Below are positions 6,365-24,617 of a DNA stretch of 39,664 nt, piece after piece. The first letter of the stretch is position 1. Each line of letters opens with the position of its first letter. Position numbers and translations under genes: made by a program. Below the pieces are notes generated by a model, which saw only the letters and a program-made list of their open reading frames with translations, did no database searches and had not been told where the DNA came from. Source of the DNA: a bacterium (GTDB taxonomy: Bacteria; Bacillota; Clostridia; Oscillospirales; Acutalibacteraceae); contig JAHKVW010000041.1 of assembly GCA_020624805.1 (NCBI GenBank), positions 1 through 39,664 of the forward strand. Reading direction: 5' to 3'.

Positions 6365-6564
6365 GCGGCGTGTGACTTGTCATAAAACCCCGTGTGCAAT
6401 TAATCAAAAATAAGACGCGCAACTTTTCATAACAATCCCATGTATAATAATTCAAAAAAAGCGGCGCGCAACTTGTCATATTAATCCCGTGTGTAATTAA
6501 TCAAAAATAAGACGCGTAACTTTTCATAACAATCCCATGTATAATAATTCAAAAAAAGCGGTGC
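6365..6564. repeat. Tandem repeats of about 47-50 bp upstream of aspS
   Basis: Four consecutive related units start at 6365, 6414, 6461 and 6511, with a truncated fifth at 6558. They alternate as A-B-A-B: A units begin GCGGCG and carry CTTGTCAT, B units begin GACGCG and carry CTTTTCATAACAATCCCATG; both end TAATWATTCAAAAAWAA. The two B units are almost identical (one change), giving a 97-bp higher-order period. There is no ORF and no spacer diversity, so it is not a CRISPR array. The rest of 6307-6364 holds only a partial copy of the ACTGAAAAC family. Confidence 0.9.
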
Positions 6565-6570
6565 GCCGCC

Positions 6571-8454: not shown

Positions 8455-8546
8455 AAGACCCCCTTTCCTAAGGGGGCTGTCGCGAAGCGACTGGGGGTTG
8501 CAACCCTCCGCCCTATCGGGCACCTCCCTTAGAAAAGGGAGGCTTA
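8455..8546. repeat. Head-to-head pair of palindromic repeats between aspS and gatC
   Basis: The right half starts CAACCCTCCG, has a hairpin CCC-TAT-CGGG, and ends CACCTCCCTTAGAAAAGGGA GG as a stem. The left half is an inverted copy of the same layout with CCCCCTTTCCTAAGGGGG and GTCGCGAAGCGAC; the two meet at GGGTTGCAACCC (8496-8505). Members of the same family lie at 13955-14188, inside ksgA at 23811-23900, and at 37371-37484. It may also slow or terminate transcription, as there are stable stems. Confidence 0.85.
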
Positions 8547-11905: not shown

Positions 11906-13432
11906 ATGTTTTCATCGACTGAGATATTTATGGTGATCGGGCTGCTGCCTGCCGCATTGCTGCTGTTCTATATCTACAAGATGGATCGTATCGAAAAGGA
12001 GCCGAAGGGTCTGCTTGTCGGACTGTTTTTCCTCGGCGTCGGAGCAACGATCCCGACGATCGTCGTAGAAGTATTGCTGTCGATTCTGAATAACGGCATC
12101 TTCTTCGGTTCTTTTACGAATGAATATGAGTATCTTTTTGTCGACGGCAAGGTGTACCTCTATGAATTTGTCAACAACTTTTTCGGTATCGCGCTTGTGG
12201 AAGAGGGCTTCAAGTGGCTCTTTATGTTCCTGCTCACCCGAAAAAGCAAGAGCTTCAACTGCCTTTTTGACGGTGTGGTTTACGCGGCGTTCGTCTCACT
12301 GGGCTTTGCCGCGGCAGAGAATGTCATGTATGTATTTACGGGCGGATTGGTCACCGGTGTGCTGCGTATGATCACCGCCGTACCCGCGCACTGTGCCTTC
12401 TCAGTCGTGATGGGCTATTTCTACGGCAAGTGGTTCATCAATCGCAATGCGGGCGCCTTGGAAAAGAACCTGTATCAAAACGGAGTAATCATGACGACGC
12501 CGAAGGGCTTCGGCGAAGGAAAATTCCTGCTGCTCAGTCTGGTTGTTCCGATGGCGATCCACGGCTTCTATGATTTCTGCTGCACCTTTACGTCGTATTC
12601 GTGGGTGTACTGGGTACTGCTGTTTTTGCTGCTTATCTTTTTGTATATCGTTTGCTTCCGCAATGTTTACGCGCTGTCAAAGAAAGACGCGTACATTACC
12701 TATCTCTGTATGGAGAAGGTACTTGAAAGATATCCCGACACGGCAGGCTATCTGTGCAGGATGCCCGAGCACATCGTGTTCTTTACGCCTCAGGTCATCC
12801 AGACGTCGATCATGAACCGTGAGCCTCACGGCGTCAAGATCACGGCAAACAATATGTATTACGCGCATCCGATGCCTGTCACAAGGCCAAAGCCCGCGCC
12901 TCAGCCGGTTTATCCGCAGCCTCAGCCGATACAGTACGGTCAGCCGATGAACGCACCTCAGGCACAGCCGATACAGTACGGTCAGCCGATGAACGTACCT
13001 CAGGCACAGCCGATGCAGTATGGTCAGCCGATGAACAGACCTCAGGCTCAGCCGATACAGTACAGTCAGCCGATACAGTACAGTCAGCCGATGAACGGAC
13101 CTCAGGCACAGCCGATGCAGTACGGTCAGCCGATGAACAGGCCTCAGGCTCAGCCGATGCAGTACGGTCAGCCGATGAACAGGCCTCAGGCTCAGCCGAC
13201 GCAGTACGCGCAGCCGGTGAACCAGCCCCAGGCACAGCCTGCGTCGTATGCGCAGCCGTTGCAGACCGCGCAGCCTGATTACAGCAACGGCGGTCGTCCT
13301 GTGGTGGATGAAGAGCCGTATACGACCCAGCTCGATAACCTCGAGCCTGTCGGCGGTTATCGCCGCCTCGGAGGAACTCCGACGATCCAGTTCCCCGATC
13401 AGAGTCAGAATCCGTATTATACACAGCAATAA
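11906..13432 (+). CDS. PrsW-family membrane protease with Q/P-rich repeat tail
   Basis: A 508-residue protein. The first 265 or so residues are a multi-pass membrane domain with the PrsW/CPBP-like motifs VEEGFKW (about 99-105), PAHCAFSVVMGYFYGKW (about 164-180) and AIHGFYDFCC (about 217-226); the Glu-Glu and the His residues are the presumed metal and catalytic positions. In Bacillus, PrsW cleaves the anti-sigma factor RsiW within the membrane. After a basic stretch, residues about 338-450 are a 13-residue tandem repeat around QAQPMQYGQPMNRP, followed by an acidic end. No anti-sigma factor or sigma gene lies next to it, so its substrate is unknown. Start follows GGGGTGTTAAGAAATG, a modest site. 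It converges with the thioesterase gene on a shared terminator. Confidence 0.85.
   Translation: MFSSTEIFMVIGLLPAALLLFYIYKMDRIEKEPKGLLVGLFFLGVGATIPTIVVEVLLSILNNGIFFGSFTNEYEYLFVDGKVYLYEFVNNFFGIALVEEGFKWLFMFLLTRKSKSFNCLFDGVVYAAFVSLGFAAAENVMYVFTGGLVTGVLRMITAVPAHCAFSVVMGYFYGKWFINRNAGALEKNLYQNGVIMTTPKGFGEGKFLLLSLVVPMAIHGFYDFCCTFTSYSWVYWVLLFLLLIFLYIVCFRNVYALSKKDAYITYLCMEKVLERYPDTAGYLCRMPEHIVFFTPQVIQTSIMNREPHGVKITANNMYYAHPMPVTRPKPAPQPVYPQPQPIQYGQPMNAPQAQPIQYGQPMNVPQAQPMQYGQPMNRPQAQPIQYSQPIQYSQPMNGPQAQPMQYGQPMNRPQAQPMQYGQPMNRPQAQPTQYAQPVNQPQAQPASYAQPLQTAQPDYSNGGRPVVDEEPYTTQLDNLEPVGGYRRLGGTPTIQFPDQSQNPYYTQQ
12919..13265 (+). repeat. 39-bp coding minisatellite in the PrsW-like gene
   Basis: About eight copies of a 39-bp unit encode a 13-residue repeat centred on CAGTACGGTCAGCCGATGAA. 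Neighbouring units differ by few bases, including silent ones, and a half-unit duplication (ATACAGTACAGTCAGCCG twice, 13065-13090) shows slippage. Copy number probably varies between strains. Confidence 0.92.
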
Positions 13433-13954: not shown

Positions 13955-14188
13955 AAAGCCTCCCTTTCCTAAGGGAGGTGGCAACGAGCGCAAGCGAAGT
14001 TGACGGAGGGTTGTCATATATGTGGTTTTATGATTTCCTGAATGGATGAAAAACATACGTTATATCAACCCTCAGTCACGGAACACAAGTGTCCGTGACA
14101 GCCCTCCTCAGCGGAGGCAGCAGACCCCTTTGTCCGCTATGCGGACATTTCCCCTAACAGGGGAATCTCCTTAGGAAAGGGAGCCTTT
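13955..14188. repeat. Composite palindromic repeat with inverted ends
   Basis: Ends are inverted copies: AAAGCCTCCCTTTCCTAAGG at the left and CCTTAGGAAAGGGAGCCTTT at the right (14169-14188). The left part contains GGTGGCAACGAGCGCAAGCG and ends GACGGAGGGTTG; the right part begins CAACCCTCAG, has the stem GTCACGGA... TCCGTGAC, and the paired runs GTCCGC / GCGGAC and TTCCCCT / AGGGGAA. A unique AT-rich stretch of about 50 bases joins the halves. The right part is closely matched at 37371-37484. It fills most of the gene-free 13928-14213. Confidence 0.88.
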
Positions 14189-18522: not shown

Positions 18523-19245
18523 TCAGCCGCGGATGTTGTAATCACCCGCGAGAAGATTCATAGCGGTCAACAGCTTGTGAGTATAGATGAACGGTCCGCA
18601 GATGATGAACGCGCCCAAAACGCCCCATAGCCAGAAGGTGCCTGCGCCGAAGCTGTACCTGATGCCTCTGCGTTTTAGCTCCGCGCTGATACGGCTGCTG
18701 GTATTGTGATACCAAATGATGGGCAGGATACCAAAGGTCAGCCATGAGAACAGGAAGAATACCAAACAATAATGCATCGTGCTTTTTCCGTCATATTGGG
18801 AAGCAATGGTGTTGATGTAGGTCGAAACCCTGCTCATGACGATGATGGGGTATATGCCGAAGGTGACGATCCCCAGGAAAAAGAACTTGACCAGACTGAA
18901 GTCGGTCGCAAGCGGAACCGCGGGACGACCGCCTTGTTGCTGATACTGCTGCGGCGCATACGATTGCTGTGCGTACTGCTGCTGCGGATACTGTTGCCGT
19001 TGCCGGTATTGCTGCTGCGGATACTGCTGCTGCGGATACTGCTGCTGCGGCTGCTGATACTGCGGCTGCTGATACTGCGGCTGCCGGTATTGCTGCTGCT
19101 GATATTGCTGTTGCGGCTGCTGATACTGCGGTTGTTGGTATTGCGGCTGCCGGTACTGCTGCGGGTATTGCTGCTGCGGATACTGCTGCTGCGGATACTG
19201 CTGCTGTTGACCGTATCGGTTCTGATCATAATTGTTTTGATCCAT
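18523..19245 (-). CDS. DUF4234-like membrane protein with YPQQQ-repeat N-terminus
   Basis: A 240-residue protein. The first 115 residues are almost only Gln, Tyr, Pro and Arg in repeats of YPQQQ and YQQPQ, a low-complexity, probably disordered cytosolic region. The rest has three hydrophobic segments: FFFLGIVTFGIYPIIVMSRV, HYCLVFFLFSWLTFGILPII and FWLWGVLGAFIICGPFIY, with the repeated FGIYPI / FGILPI motif and a following basic helix, as in DUF4234 proteins. Role unknown. Start ATG follows AAAGGAAACAAC. Its gene start is partly duplicated 130 bases upstream (see 19307-19375). Confidence 0.75.
   Translation of the reverse strand: MDQNNYDQNRYGQQQQYPQQQYPQQQYPQQYRQPQYQQPQYQQPQQQYQQQQYRQPQYQQPQYQQPQQQYPQQQYPQQQYRQRQQYPQQQYAQQSYAPQQYQQQGGRPAVPLATDFSLVKFFFLGIVTFGIYPIIVMSRVSTYINTIASQYDGKSTMHYCLVFFLFSWLTFGILPIIWYHNTSSRISAELKRRGIRYSFGAGTFWLWGVLGAFIICGPFIYTHKLLTAMNLLAGDYNIRG
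18935..19212 (-). repeat. 15-bp coding repeats in the DUF4234-like gene
   Basis: On the plus strand this is a run of CTGCTGCGGATACTG-type units, i.e. CAG-CAG-TAT-CCG-CAG read on the coding strand. Units alternate between YPQQQ and YQQPQ, with interspersed RQ units. Such a tract is prone to slippage, and multiples of 15 or 3 bases keep the frame. Confidence 0.88.
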
Positions 19246-22332: not shown

Positions 22333-23682
22333 ATGAAAATGAATGATTGTTTTGAACGGATGAAAACCGTCCTCGGCGAGGATTACGACCGTTTTCTGGA
22401 AACGGTGGACAAGCCGGCGTATAAGGCGATCCGCGTCAATACGCTCAAGATCCAGCCTGAGGAGCTGTTGCCGCTGTTGCCCTTTGCGGGGGAACAGGTG
22501 CCCTTTTCGGCGACGGGATATTATGTGGACGTCGAAAAGCTCGGCAAGCATCCGTTGCATCACGCGGGCGCGTTCTATGTGCAAGAGCCTTCGGCGATGT
22601 CCGCCGTGACGGCGCTGCATGTCGAGCCGGGTGATAAGGTGCTTGATCTGTGTGCCGCGCCCGGCGGTAAAAGCACCCAGATCGCCGCCGATCTGAATGG
22701 TACGGGATTGTTGTGGGCGAATGAGATCGTCCGTCCGCGCGCGCATATCCTCTTGTCGAATATCGAGCGCATGGGTGTAAAGAACGCCGTGGTGTCCAAC
22801 ATGAAGCCCGATGTGTTGTGTGATCGGTTAGAGGGCTTTTTCGATAAAGTTTTGGTCGACGCTCCCTGCTCGGGTGAGGGGATGTTCCGCAAGGACAAAG
22901 AGGCGATCTATGAGTGGTCGGCGGAGCACAGCCTTTCCTGTGCCGAACGCCAGAAGGCGATCATCCACTCCGCCGCCGCGGCAGTCAAGCCCGGTGGTGT
23001 GATGGTCTATTCCACCTGCACCTTCTCTCCGGATGAAAACGAAGGTGTGGTACAACATTTTCTCAGCGAGCATCCCGAGTTTGAGCTGATCGACACGGGC
23101 TGTCGCTTCGGTACCCCGACGATGGAGCACGCGATCCGTATCTATCCGTTCCACGGCGGTGAGGGACATTTTGTCGCCAAGTTCCGCAAGTGCAAGGGGA
23201 AGAACTATAAAGGAAAGATGTTCACCTATTTTGAGCCGCCCCGTGAGGAGCGCGTCGAGATCGAGAAATTCATCTGCGATATCCTGCGCAACCCGTATTT
23301 CAGACATTATCACGTGATCGACGAACGTATATTGAACCTGCCCGACGTCGAGCTGCTGCCCGATCTGGAGGGGATGAATATCCTGCGCGCGGGCGTAAAG
23401 CTGGGCGACTTCAAAAAGAATCGGATCGAGCCGCATCATAACCTTGCGACCTCGCTGACGCCCTATGACTTCAAGCAAAGGCTGATCATGAGCTGTGAGG
23501 ATGTTGCCGCCGCGCGATATATCAGCGGCGAGGAGCTGGAGATCGACAACTGGATCAACGGCTGGGGCGTTGCGACAGTCAACGGCGTGACGCTGGGATT
23601 GGGCAAGGCGGTCAACGGTCATTTAAAGAATAAGTATCCGAAAGGATTGCGTACACTCGCATGGAAAGACTTACAGATATAA
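22333..23682 (+). CDS. RsmF/NOL1-NOP2-sun family rRNA m5C methyltransferase
   Basis: A 449-residue enzyme that methylates cytosine-5 in 16S rRNA with SAM. Order: N-terminal region, Rossmann methyltransferase domain with motif I VLDLCAAPGGKSTQIAADL (about 105-123), the two catalytic-type cysteines Cys179 (DAPCSGEG) and Cys229 (STCTFSPDENE), then a C-terminal RsmF/PUA-like part (about 300-449) with GEGHFVAKFRK and LGLGKAVNGHLKNKYPKGLR. This layout is typical of Firmicutes RsmF (YebU-like) proteins. Its end overlaps the ksgA start by 22 bases, so the two 16S rRNA modifying enzymes form a coupled pair. Start follows AAAAGAGGCG, a modest site. Confidence 0.9.
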   Translation: MKMNDCFERMKTVLGEDYDRFLETVDKPAYKAIRVNTLKIQPEELLPLLPFAGEQVPFSATGYYVDVEKLGKHPLHHAGAFYVQEPSAMSAVTALHVEPGDKVLDLCAAPGGKSTQIAADLNGTGLLWANEIVRPRAHILLSNIERMGVKNAVVSNMKPDVLCDRLEGFFDKVLVDAPCSGEGMFRKDKEAIYEWSAEHSLSCAERQKAIIHSAAAAVKPGGVMVYSTCTFSPDENEGVVQHFLSEHPEFELIDTGCRFGTPTMEHAIRIYPFHGGEGHFVAKFRKCKGKNYKGKMFTYFEPPREERVEIEKFICDILRNPYFRHYHVIDERILNLPDVELLPDLEGMNILRAGVKLGDFKKNRIEPHHNLATSLTPYDFKQRLIMSCEDVAAARYISGEELEIDNWINGWGVATVNGVTLGLGKAVNGHLKNKYPKGLRTLAWKDLQI

Positions 23683-24617
23683 ATGTGATCCGCGAGCTGC
23701 TCAGCCGTCACGGGTTCACCTTTTCCAAGGCGTTGGGTCAGAATTTCCTGATCAACCCCTCGGTGTGCCCCCGCATGGCAGACGCCGCGGTAGAAAGCGT
23801 GAAGGTTACTCACCGGACACAAACGTCCGGTTCAAGCAATGAAACAATCCCTCCGAGTTCGTCAAAGACGAACCCACCTCCCTTTACCAAAGGGAGGCGT
23901 CGCGTCGGCGTGATCGAGATCGGTCCCGGTATCGGTGTGCTGACAAGAGAGCTGTTACAAAGAGCGGATAAGGTCGTCGCGGTCGAGTTGGACAAGCGCC
24001 TGCTCCCCGTATTGGACGAGACCTTAGGAGAATTCGATAACCTCAAGGTCGTCAACGCGGATGTGCTGGAGCTGGATCTGCACCGCCTGATCGAAGAAGA
24101 ATTCAGCGGCATGGAAGTGGTCGTATGCGCCAACCTGCCGTATTATATCACCTCTCCCGTGATTATGAAGCTGCTCGAGGACAAGCTGCCGATCAGCACG
24201 ATCACGGTAATGGTGCAAAAGGAAGCGGCGGTGCGGTTATGCGCACAGCCGGGTACACGCGACAGCTCCGCCATTACGGCGGCGGTGCGCTATTACTGCG
24301 ACCCCGAGCTGTTGTTTCATGTGTCGGCGGGGTCGTTCATGCCCGCGCCCAAGGTGGATTCGGCAGTCATACAGCTCGTCCTGCATGAGCCCGCGGTTCA
24401 CCCGAGGAATGAAAAAACCTTCTTCGCGGTGATCAAAGGAGCGTTTGCCCAGCGCAGAAAAACCGTGCTCAACTCGCTTTCTTCCTCACTTTCTCTTGAC
24501 AAGAACACAGTTCGTGATATACTGAAATCAGCGGGCGTGGATGAAAACGCCCGCGCCGAAAGATTGACTCTCGAAGACTTTTCCGCTATTTCCGACGCTG
24601 TTGATGAAATGGAGTAA
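23661..24617 (+). CDS. rsmA (ksgA): 16S rRNA dimethyladenosine transferase KsgA with a 33-residue insertion
   Basis: A 318-residue enzyme that dimethylates two adjacent adenosines in helix 45 of 16S rRNA. N-terminal GFTFSKALGQNFLINPSV, motif I VIEIGPGIGVLTREL, NLPYYITSPVIMKLLE (catalytic NLPY) and FAQRRKTVLNSL are all intact. Compared with Bacillus subtilis KsgA (292 residues, recalled), about 33 extra residues (50-82) lie between the helix ending AAVESVKV and the motif I strand. This insert is Pro/Ser/Thr/Arg-rich and is encoded by a palindromic intergenic-type repeat (23811-23900). The reading frame stays open and the rest looks normal, so the gene is probably functional, with a loop on the surface before strand 1. 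It starts inside the 3' end of the upstream methyltransferase gene and is followed after three bases by a small membrane protein gene. Confidence 0.93.
   Translation: MERLTDINVIRELLSRHGFTFSKALGQNFLINPSVCPRMADAAVESVKVTHRTQTSGSSNETIPPSSSKTNPPPFTKGRRRVGVIEIGPGIGVLTRELLQRADKVVAVELDKRLLPVLDETLGEFDNLKVVNADVLELDLHRLIEEEFSGMEVVVCANLPYYITSPVIMKLLEDKLPISTITVMVQKEAAVRLCAQPGTRDSSAITAAVRYYCDPELLFHVSAGSFMPAPKVDSAVIQLVLHEPAVHPRNEKTFFAVIKGAFAQRRKTVLNSLSSSLSLDKNTVRDILKSAGVDENARAERLTLEDFSAISDAVDEME
23811..23900 (+). repeat. Palindromic repeat inserted in frame inside ksgA
   Basis: Three successive hairpins: ACCGGAC / GTCCGGT (23812-23818, 23825-23831), GTTCGTC / GACGAAC (23857-23863, 23867-23873), CCTCCCTTT / AAAGGGAGG (23877-23885, 23889-23897). 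The order CAATCCCTCCG, variable hairpin, CACCTCCCTTT stem, GGC is the same as in the intergenic copies at 8501-8544 and (inverted) 13957-14015. Confidence 0.92.

Follow-up and report, generated by a model that had tools for sequence, protein, structure and literature searches.

How does the gene of a conserved rRNA-modifying enzyme come to carry a palindromic repeat in its reading frame, and has the peptide so encoded been recruited for a function? The ksgA gene in the window, by which we mean the whole analysed stretch of 39,664 nucleotides, raises both questions. The best-known protein-coding palindromes are those of Rickettsia, in which their persistence could be put down to genome decay. 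KsgA is not essential in E. coli. The first-pass annotation of this DNA held that residues 50-82 of KsgA are encoded by three consecutive hairpins of a repeat that recurs in the window, and that a mobile palindromic element has been domesticated there. According to our analysis, the segment at 23804-23898 is very probably half of a multi-copy palindromic repeat lying in frame in ksgA, which probably came in as a mobile element of the non-autonomous sort and which the enzyme probably tolerates without making use of it. The features of the gene, and the relatives of the repeat in the window, are as follows.

23661..24617, + strand: ksgA (rsmA), 318 aa, 16S rRNA dimethyladenosine transferase, identified from its ORF and NCBIfam
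23804..23898, + strand: solo half of the family A repeat, in frame, delimited by comparison with other copies
23812..23831, + strand: hairpin 1, with a stem of 7-8 bp and two two-sided base changes in G017
23845..23855, + strand: conserved family A box CAATCCCTCCG, shared by copies
23855..23875, + strand: hairpin 2, variable, with the loop AAA or TTT among relatives
23877..23897, + strand: terminal hairpin 3, CCTCCCTTTACCAAAGGGAGG, identical in four species
8457..8543 (ends approximate), no strand: degenerate, paired copy of this kind of repeat, lying between genes
13958..14185 (ends approximate, by eye), no strand: paired copy lying between genes, which encloses another palindromic stretch
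37371 on, strand not given: intergenic relative of the repeat

The ksgA product scores 240.9 bits against the NCBIfam ksgA equivalog, above the cut-off of 171, and the insert-free KsgA proteins of the close relatives examined have 284-302 aa. That a copy of the repeat lies in frame within KsgA is borne out by the 318-aa ORF, the three hairpins and the genome-wide family matches; of the earlier delimitation, the three hairpins stood, whereas the insert occupies codons 48-80 (window 23804-23898) instead, with the frame kept and a net gain of 29 residues. The right end, GGAGGC, is sharp in comparison with other copies, and the left end, GGTTACTC, was set from intergenic copies and is less certain. 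As RNA, the 95 nt give -34.1 kcal/mol (z -5.4), a stability reached by 0 of 200 shuffles, and Rfam returned no match at E<=1 to window positions 23600-24100. The loop of hairpin 2 (window 23864-23866) reads AAA or TTT and residue 69 is correspondingly Lys or Leu, with Leu in 5 of 14 near-identical KsgA proteins; the two states look as if the hairpin had been inverted in place.

Matches to the family A element were found at 57 places in the source genome (G000) at E<=10, the ksgA copy included, with 40 of 85 candidates scored, and the best other match to the ksgA element has an E of 7.4e-17. The core of the terminal hairpin occurs there at 29 sites as the C-type CCTCCCTTTNNNAAAGGGAGG (<=1 mismatch) and at 57 sites as the G-type GCTCCCTTTNNNAAAGGGAGC, 86 in all, and the reversed control pattern of both core types has 0 occurrences in the same genome. 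Aligned copies carry, besides CAATCCCTCNG, both a variable and the terminal hairpin, and they end in GGAGGC or GGAGCC. An inverted partner box lies at most 170 nt upstream in 34 of the 44 distinct half-elements listed, the ksgA copy being among the 10 without one; family A has terminal inverted repeats by way of these partner boxes, and the ksgA copy is a single half. Paired elements, made of two halves in inverted orientation, measure about 170-205 bp (paired cores 171-203 bp in examples), and solo halves exist as well. The family is multi-copy, palindromic and mostly located outside recognised genes. Its recurrence within the window, as first described, was found again at the three intergenic places given above, where the copies are more degenerate than those elsewhere in the source genome. 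The window also contains other repeats: two 84-nt copies with 95% identity at 6386-6566, a 42-nt periodic array at 12880-13293, and a stretch with a spacing of mostly 15 nt at 18920-19221.

Across the genus, the exact repeat core was detected in 23 of 161 congeneric genomes, in some with other loops, and a solo intergenic half in G035 (L185) aligns with the query at 79% identity along 104 nt. These data bear on the idea that the segment is a native linker which, after drift or expansion, owes its likeness to the repeat to chance. The length of the linker does vary in the genus, as in G035, where 12 extra residues are not recognised as repeat, but the idea is refuted by the match in the source genome and by the one to the G035 half, and its chance of being right is negligible.

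The position of the insert in the protein agrees with the loop placement proposed at first, on the strength of both an AlphaFold2 model and an alignment with B. subtilis KsgA. In the predicted fold, the insert follows helix 35-50 and precedes strand 82-87, and it replaces a turn that comprises two residues in B. subtilis KsgA (a gap between matched stretches of the sequence alignment). The model superimposes on the B. subtilis enzyme with a TM of 0.81 by query and 0.87-0.89 by target, and its pLDDT is below 50 over residues 50-77, so the insert is predicted to be a disordered loop without a fold of its own. NLPYYITSP and EIGPGIGVLT are invariant across a 42-protein alignment, the first I of EIG being less certain.

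Alignment with close relatives, which had been suggested as a check, recovered ksgA ORFs without the insert, and the in-frame insertion accordingly has empty-site orthologues. By a DNA search that could miss strongly diverged copies, the insert was found in ksgA of 4 of the 161 genomes, namely G000, G112, G111 and G017, with the same junctions and length in each. All four belong to the 23 genomes that hold the repeat core, so that no filled genome was seen with the residues and without the repeat. Empty sites are found in the 289-aa KsgA ORFs of G012, G146 and G065, with a short piece (e.g. RSDAP) at the place of the insert, and in G044, where the linker at the same place is empty and the ksgA ORF partial. 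Three of these four nearest empty relatives (G012, G146 and G044) carry the exact core elsewhere, and it was not found in G065, a genome that is 66% complete.

In protein databases, the insert is present in 20 full-length proteins (P0001-P0020, the window's own and 19 more) among 120 listed; this listing admits open frames only, and hence shows the spread of the insert rather than an absence of frame loss. Fourteen of them are 318 aa long, namely the protein of the window plus 13 others with identities of 96-98%, and P0020 also has 318 aa. P0018 and P0019, with 300 aa and the insert, are shorter outside the segment, and P0017 (308 aa) is without KTNPPPFTKG, ten residues of the segment. P0015 and P0016 (335 aa) have 17 extra residues in the terminal hairpin, as does the short P0047. 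This variant likely reflects a second insertion into the first, because a similar nested piece occurs in intergenic copies of G044, G017 and G012. P0047, from a 412,921-base contig of Ruminococcus sp. M6(2020), is listed as a 259-aa KsgA starting inside the 17-residue variant, its N-terminal part having either escaped annotation or lost the frame. An assembly or binning artefact, the other early doubt about this locus, can hardly be the source of the insert: the assemblies are drafts and the ksgA of G112 has an odd 3′ end, but the junctions are the same in four genomes, and the 19 further proteins come from ENA, lgn and NCBI sources. In that G112 gene (L173), the 3′ quarter after about nt 704 is a clearly different, in-frame KsgA end, owing either to recombination between species or to a chimeric contig.

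A tree of 21 ksgA genes, computed with the linker left out, joins G000, G111 and G112 (100/99) and places G017 with the empty G012 (99/96), and identities up to 900 nt upstream of ksgA show the same kinship. The well-supported branches force two changes between filled and empty states, and a tree holding the four filled sequences in a single clade withstands the AU test (p 0.107). The pattern calls for recombination, loss or another insertion. Since the four genomes agree in the junctions and the length of the insert, we infer one insertion followed by allele exchange through recombination; there may also have been two separate insertions.

Whether the peptide is under selection was addressed by computing ω on codons 1-230 in six species pairs, a region chosen after whole-gene dN/dS had been dropped because of the different 3′ end of G112. 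The ω of the insert is 0.33-1.38, compared to 0.04-0.10 in the remainder of these codons, with Fisher p values of 0.01, 0.0004, 0.03, 0.0004 and 0.0001 in five pairs and 0.48 in the sixth, the pairs not being independent. Between G000 and G017, the insert differs at 15 of 99 nt, which is below the silent divergence of the remaining gene (dS ~0.5), and therefore some constraint remains on the insert. Among the 14 near-identical 318-aa proteins, there is no excess variability of the insert (4 of 33 positions variable, versus 22 of 285 outside; p 0.33). From these comparisons, the inserted peptide is weakly constrained.

Domestication in the strict sense, in which the peptide would have been recruited for KsgA function, for example by making an extra rRNA contact via its basic end, is consistent with two findings: the segment has been retained in four species, as well as in another 19 proteins from databases, and the basic PPFTKGR is the same in the four species. 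It is nevertheless improbable in view of the ω values, which amount to amino-acid change at a near-silent rate between species, the modelled lack of structure, the length variants P0017, P0015 and P0016 at this very segment, and the sister species that lack the insert. For these reasons, the label 'domesticated' was given up in favour of tolerated selfish DNA, which fits the data better.

The hairpins could also be kept for a reason that lies in the nucleic acid and not in the peptide, such as a structure in the ksgA mRNA, or because palindromes are subject to repair and template switching. In G017, hairpin 1 shows compensatory changes on both sides of the stem at two places, with none in slid versions; this points in such a direction, and so do the similar, reduced rates at which silent and replacement sites of the insert change and the AAA/TTT loop states among near-identical proteins, taken as hairpin inversion. 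The comparison involves four sequences, however, and its covariation was reached by 24 of 500 shuffles; for the silent-site difference, two pairs give p values of 0.03 and 0.18 (rounded counts). Hairpin 3 is unchanged in the four species, but identical runs of 32 and 35 nt are also found elsewhere in ksgA; the 32-nt block that spans hairpin 3 had been considered strongly conserved, and was dropped as evidence in the face of such equal or longer runs. We regard this explanation as unlikely, if less so than recruitment of the peptide, and constraint or repair acting on the palindromes is possible.

Returning to the reading of tolerated selfish DNA, the search for other in-frame copies led to rnmV-like and metH-like genes. 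The stems screened, 56 distinct ones from source-genome loci and 165 from further genus loci with a few from the source genome, are a part of all copies; those within rnmV and metH of the source genome deviate from the exact patterns and came to light when each gene was inspected. Within recognised genes, the screened stems that have a mid-gene position are those of ksgA, rnmV (G044 and G146) and metH (G069). Pfam was run on 18 candidate ORFs and the G146 rnmV, and the remaining ORF rows of the 165-stem screen were judged by eye. Three of the 18 candidates matched Pfam (ArgJ, amino-acid kinase and prolyl-tRNA synthetase) and were rejected, the repeat lying only in an upstream extension; the other 15 had no match and were dropped. 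Repeats directly upstream of a gene can keep the frame open, whereby starts may be predicted too far upstream and false, repeat-encoded N-termini may arise, as in L002 and L014 (checked with Pfam) and in L198, L212, L241, L278 and L303 (by eye).

The rnmV products of G044 and G146 score 56.2 and 53.0 bits against NCBIfam ribonuclease M5, below the cut-off of 110.65, and are termed RNase M5-like; the G146 protein has Pfam DUF4093 above cut-off in its C-terminal part. The metH fragment of G069, truncated at the limit of its locus, falls short of the metH cut-off and passes that of the domain model PRK07535 (methyltetrahydrofolate methyltransferase). For the two genes, 50 and 40 genomes were drawn and 28 were then chosen, of which 20 belong to the 23 core holders and 8 do not. 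An in-frame repeat is present in 11 of the 22 RNase M5-like linkers read (5 of 27 rnmV loci were not read, and one of the 28 genomes had no rnmV match) and in 7 of 23 MetH-like linkers (five genomes had no metH match), both counts referring to genes and genomes picked after first hits. Among same-length non-linker pieces of the same ORFs, 7 of 616 match (1/53 + 6/563), and these look like short motifs matching by chance.

Three families share these linkers. In rnmV, family A is found alone in G044, G146 and G069, together with family B in G012, G000 and G111, and with both B and C in G035; family C, a GTAG-type repeat, occupies the linkers of G017, G065, G071 and G127. In metH, family A occurs in G069, G000 and G017, and in the other orientation in G071, and family B in G044, G111 and G146. 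Family B is GTCATTGCGAGGAGC...GGCAATCTCAACCG, which we take to be akin to CGTC-type REPs. Families B and C, found in 13 and 16 of 404 loci, appear from their distribution to be dispersed repeats, with many of the B loci being rnmV itself and weak translated matches to B elsewhere as well. The rnmV and metH linkers displayed have no stop codon, and the repeats in them are sometimes nested. The source genome itself has in-frame repeats in three core genes, ksgA, rnmV (C61) and metH (C58), the last with a further palindromic stretch nested inside the repeat. It is probable that in this genus the flexible linkers of KsgA, RNase M5 and MetH are shared landing pads for three unrelated palindromic families, with repeated in-frame insertion in both orientations and nested, and that new protein loops keep arising from selfish DNA in this Bacillota lineage.

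As to the mechanism, a non-autonomous mobile repeat, presumably mobilised in trans by a transposase, would land in or near genes by transposition. A half with about two stop-free frames of six could leave an ORF intact upon insertion into a flexible linker; the mean over 56 halves is 2.1 stop-free frames, versus 1.42 in shuffles. In-frame insertions in flexible linkers would survive and be translated, and frameshifted or core insertions would be purged. The same filter would account for the in-frame linker copies in RNase M5-like and MetH-like genes. Of the earlier term 'mobile palindromic element', the repeat family and the empty sites are borne out, and mobility itself is inferred from the repeat pattern and these sites. 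No target-site duplication was seen at the ksgA insert, at whose junction the empty relatives have a linker that deviates in about 10 nt. A search with one transposase family (PF01797) found no transposase tied to family A: the source genome has one sub-threshold Y1-transposase-like ORF, whose locus contains no family A stem and GTAG-type repeats instead. This ORF of 176 aa, which has a PNHLH motif and stays under the Pfam cut-off (G000:C60:23042-23287, L156), contains two in-frame GTAG-type palindromes of its own (VGEGLAPP and GGASPSPTT).

Several related systems have been described. Rickettsia palindromic elements are palindromic repeats of about 100-150 bp, found between genes and in frame in conserved genes, and an insert-bearing guanylate kinase of this kind was reported to be active (PMC2229807, PMC10969869). 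As far as these accounts go, the ksgA element is similar in being a palindromic repeat that is both intergenic and in frame within a conserved gene, but it differs in its Bacillota host and in its three-hairpin half and paired architecture. Intragenic GTAG/CGTC REPs occur in many genes of several species, where they are argued to lie in flexible linkers or loops, and recB of two Xanthomonas carries different REPs in roughly the same position (PMC3733652). Family C in rnmV, with GTAG at its start, resembles the GTAG class as presented there, whereas the ends of family A carry neither tag: by eye, GTAG is absent from both strands of 23804-23898, and CGTC is internal only and not at the ends of the ksgA half. 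The main text of PMC3733652 contains no 'Firmicutes', 'Clostridi' or 'Ruminococc'. Enterobacterial RU/ERIC units are MITE-like, with reading frames fused into genes (PMC2759123), and the 107-bp Correia units of Neisseria are likewise MITE-like and fused in frame (PMC2229807); both have other hosts. In a search that mostly did not extend to subscription literature, no report of in-frame palindromic repeats in Ruminococcus or its relatives was found, and printed repeat sequences gave 11-letter matches only, judged to be chance. Protein-coding palindromes are thus a known kind, and the family, the host and the shared use of linkers look new.

If the in-frame repeats in three core genes are taken as true, core proteins of a Ruminococcus-type genus are being lengthened by selfish DNA. 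The empty and filled alleles in close species, together with several families in the same linkers, form a natural system in which one could ask at what rate proteins grow through selfish DNA, where in a protein it is accepted, and whether any insert comes to be recruited.
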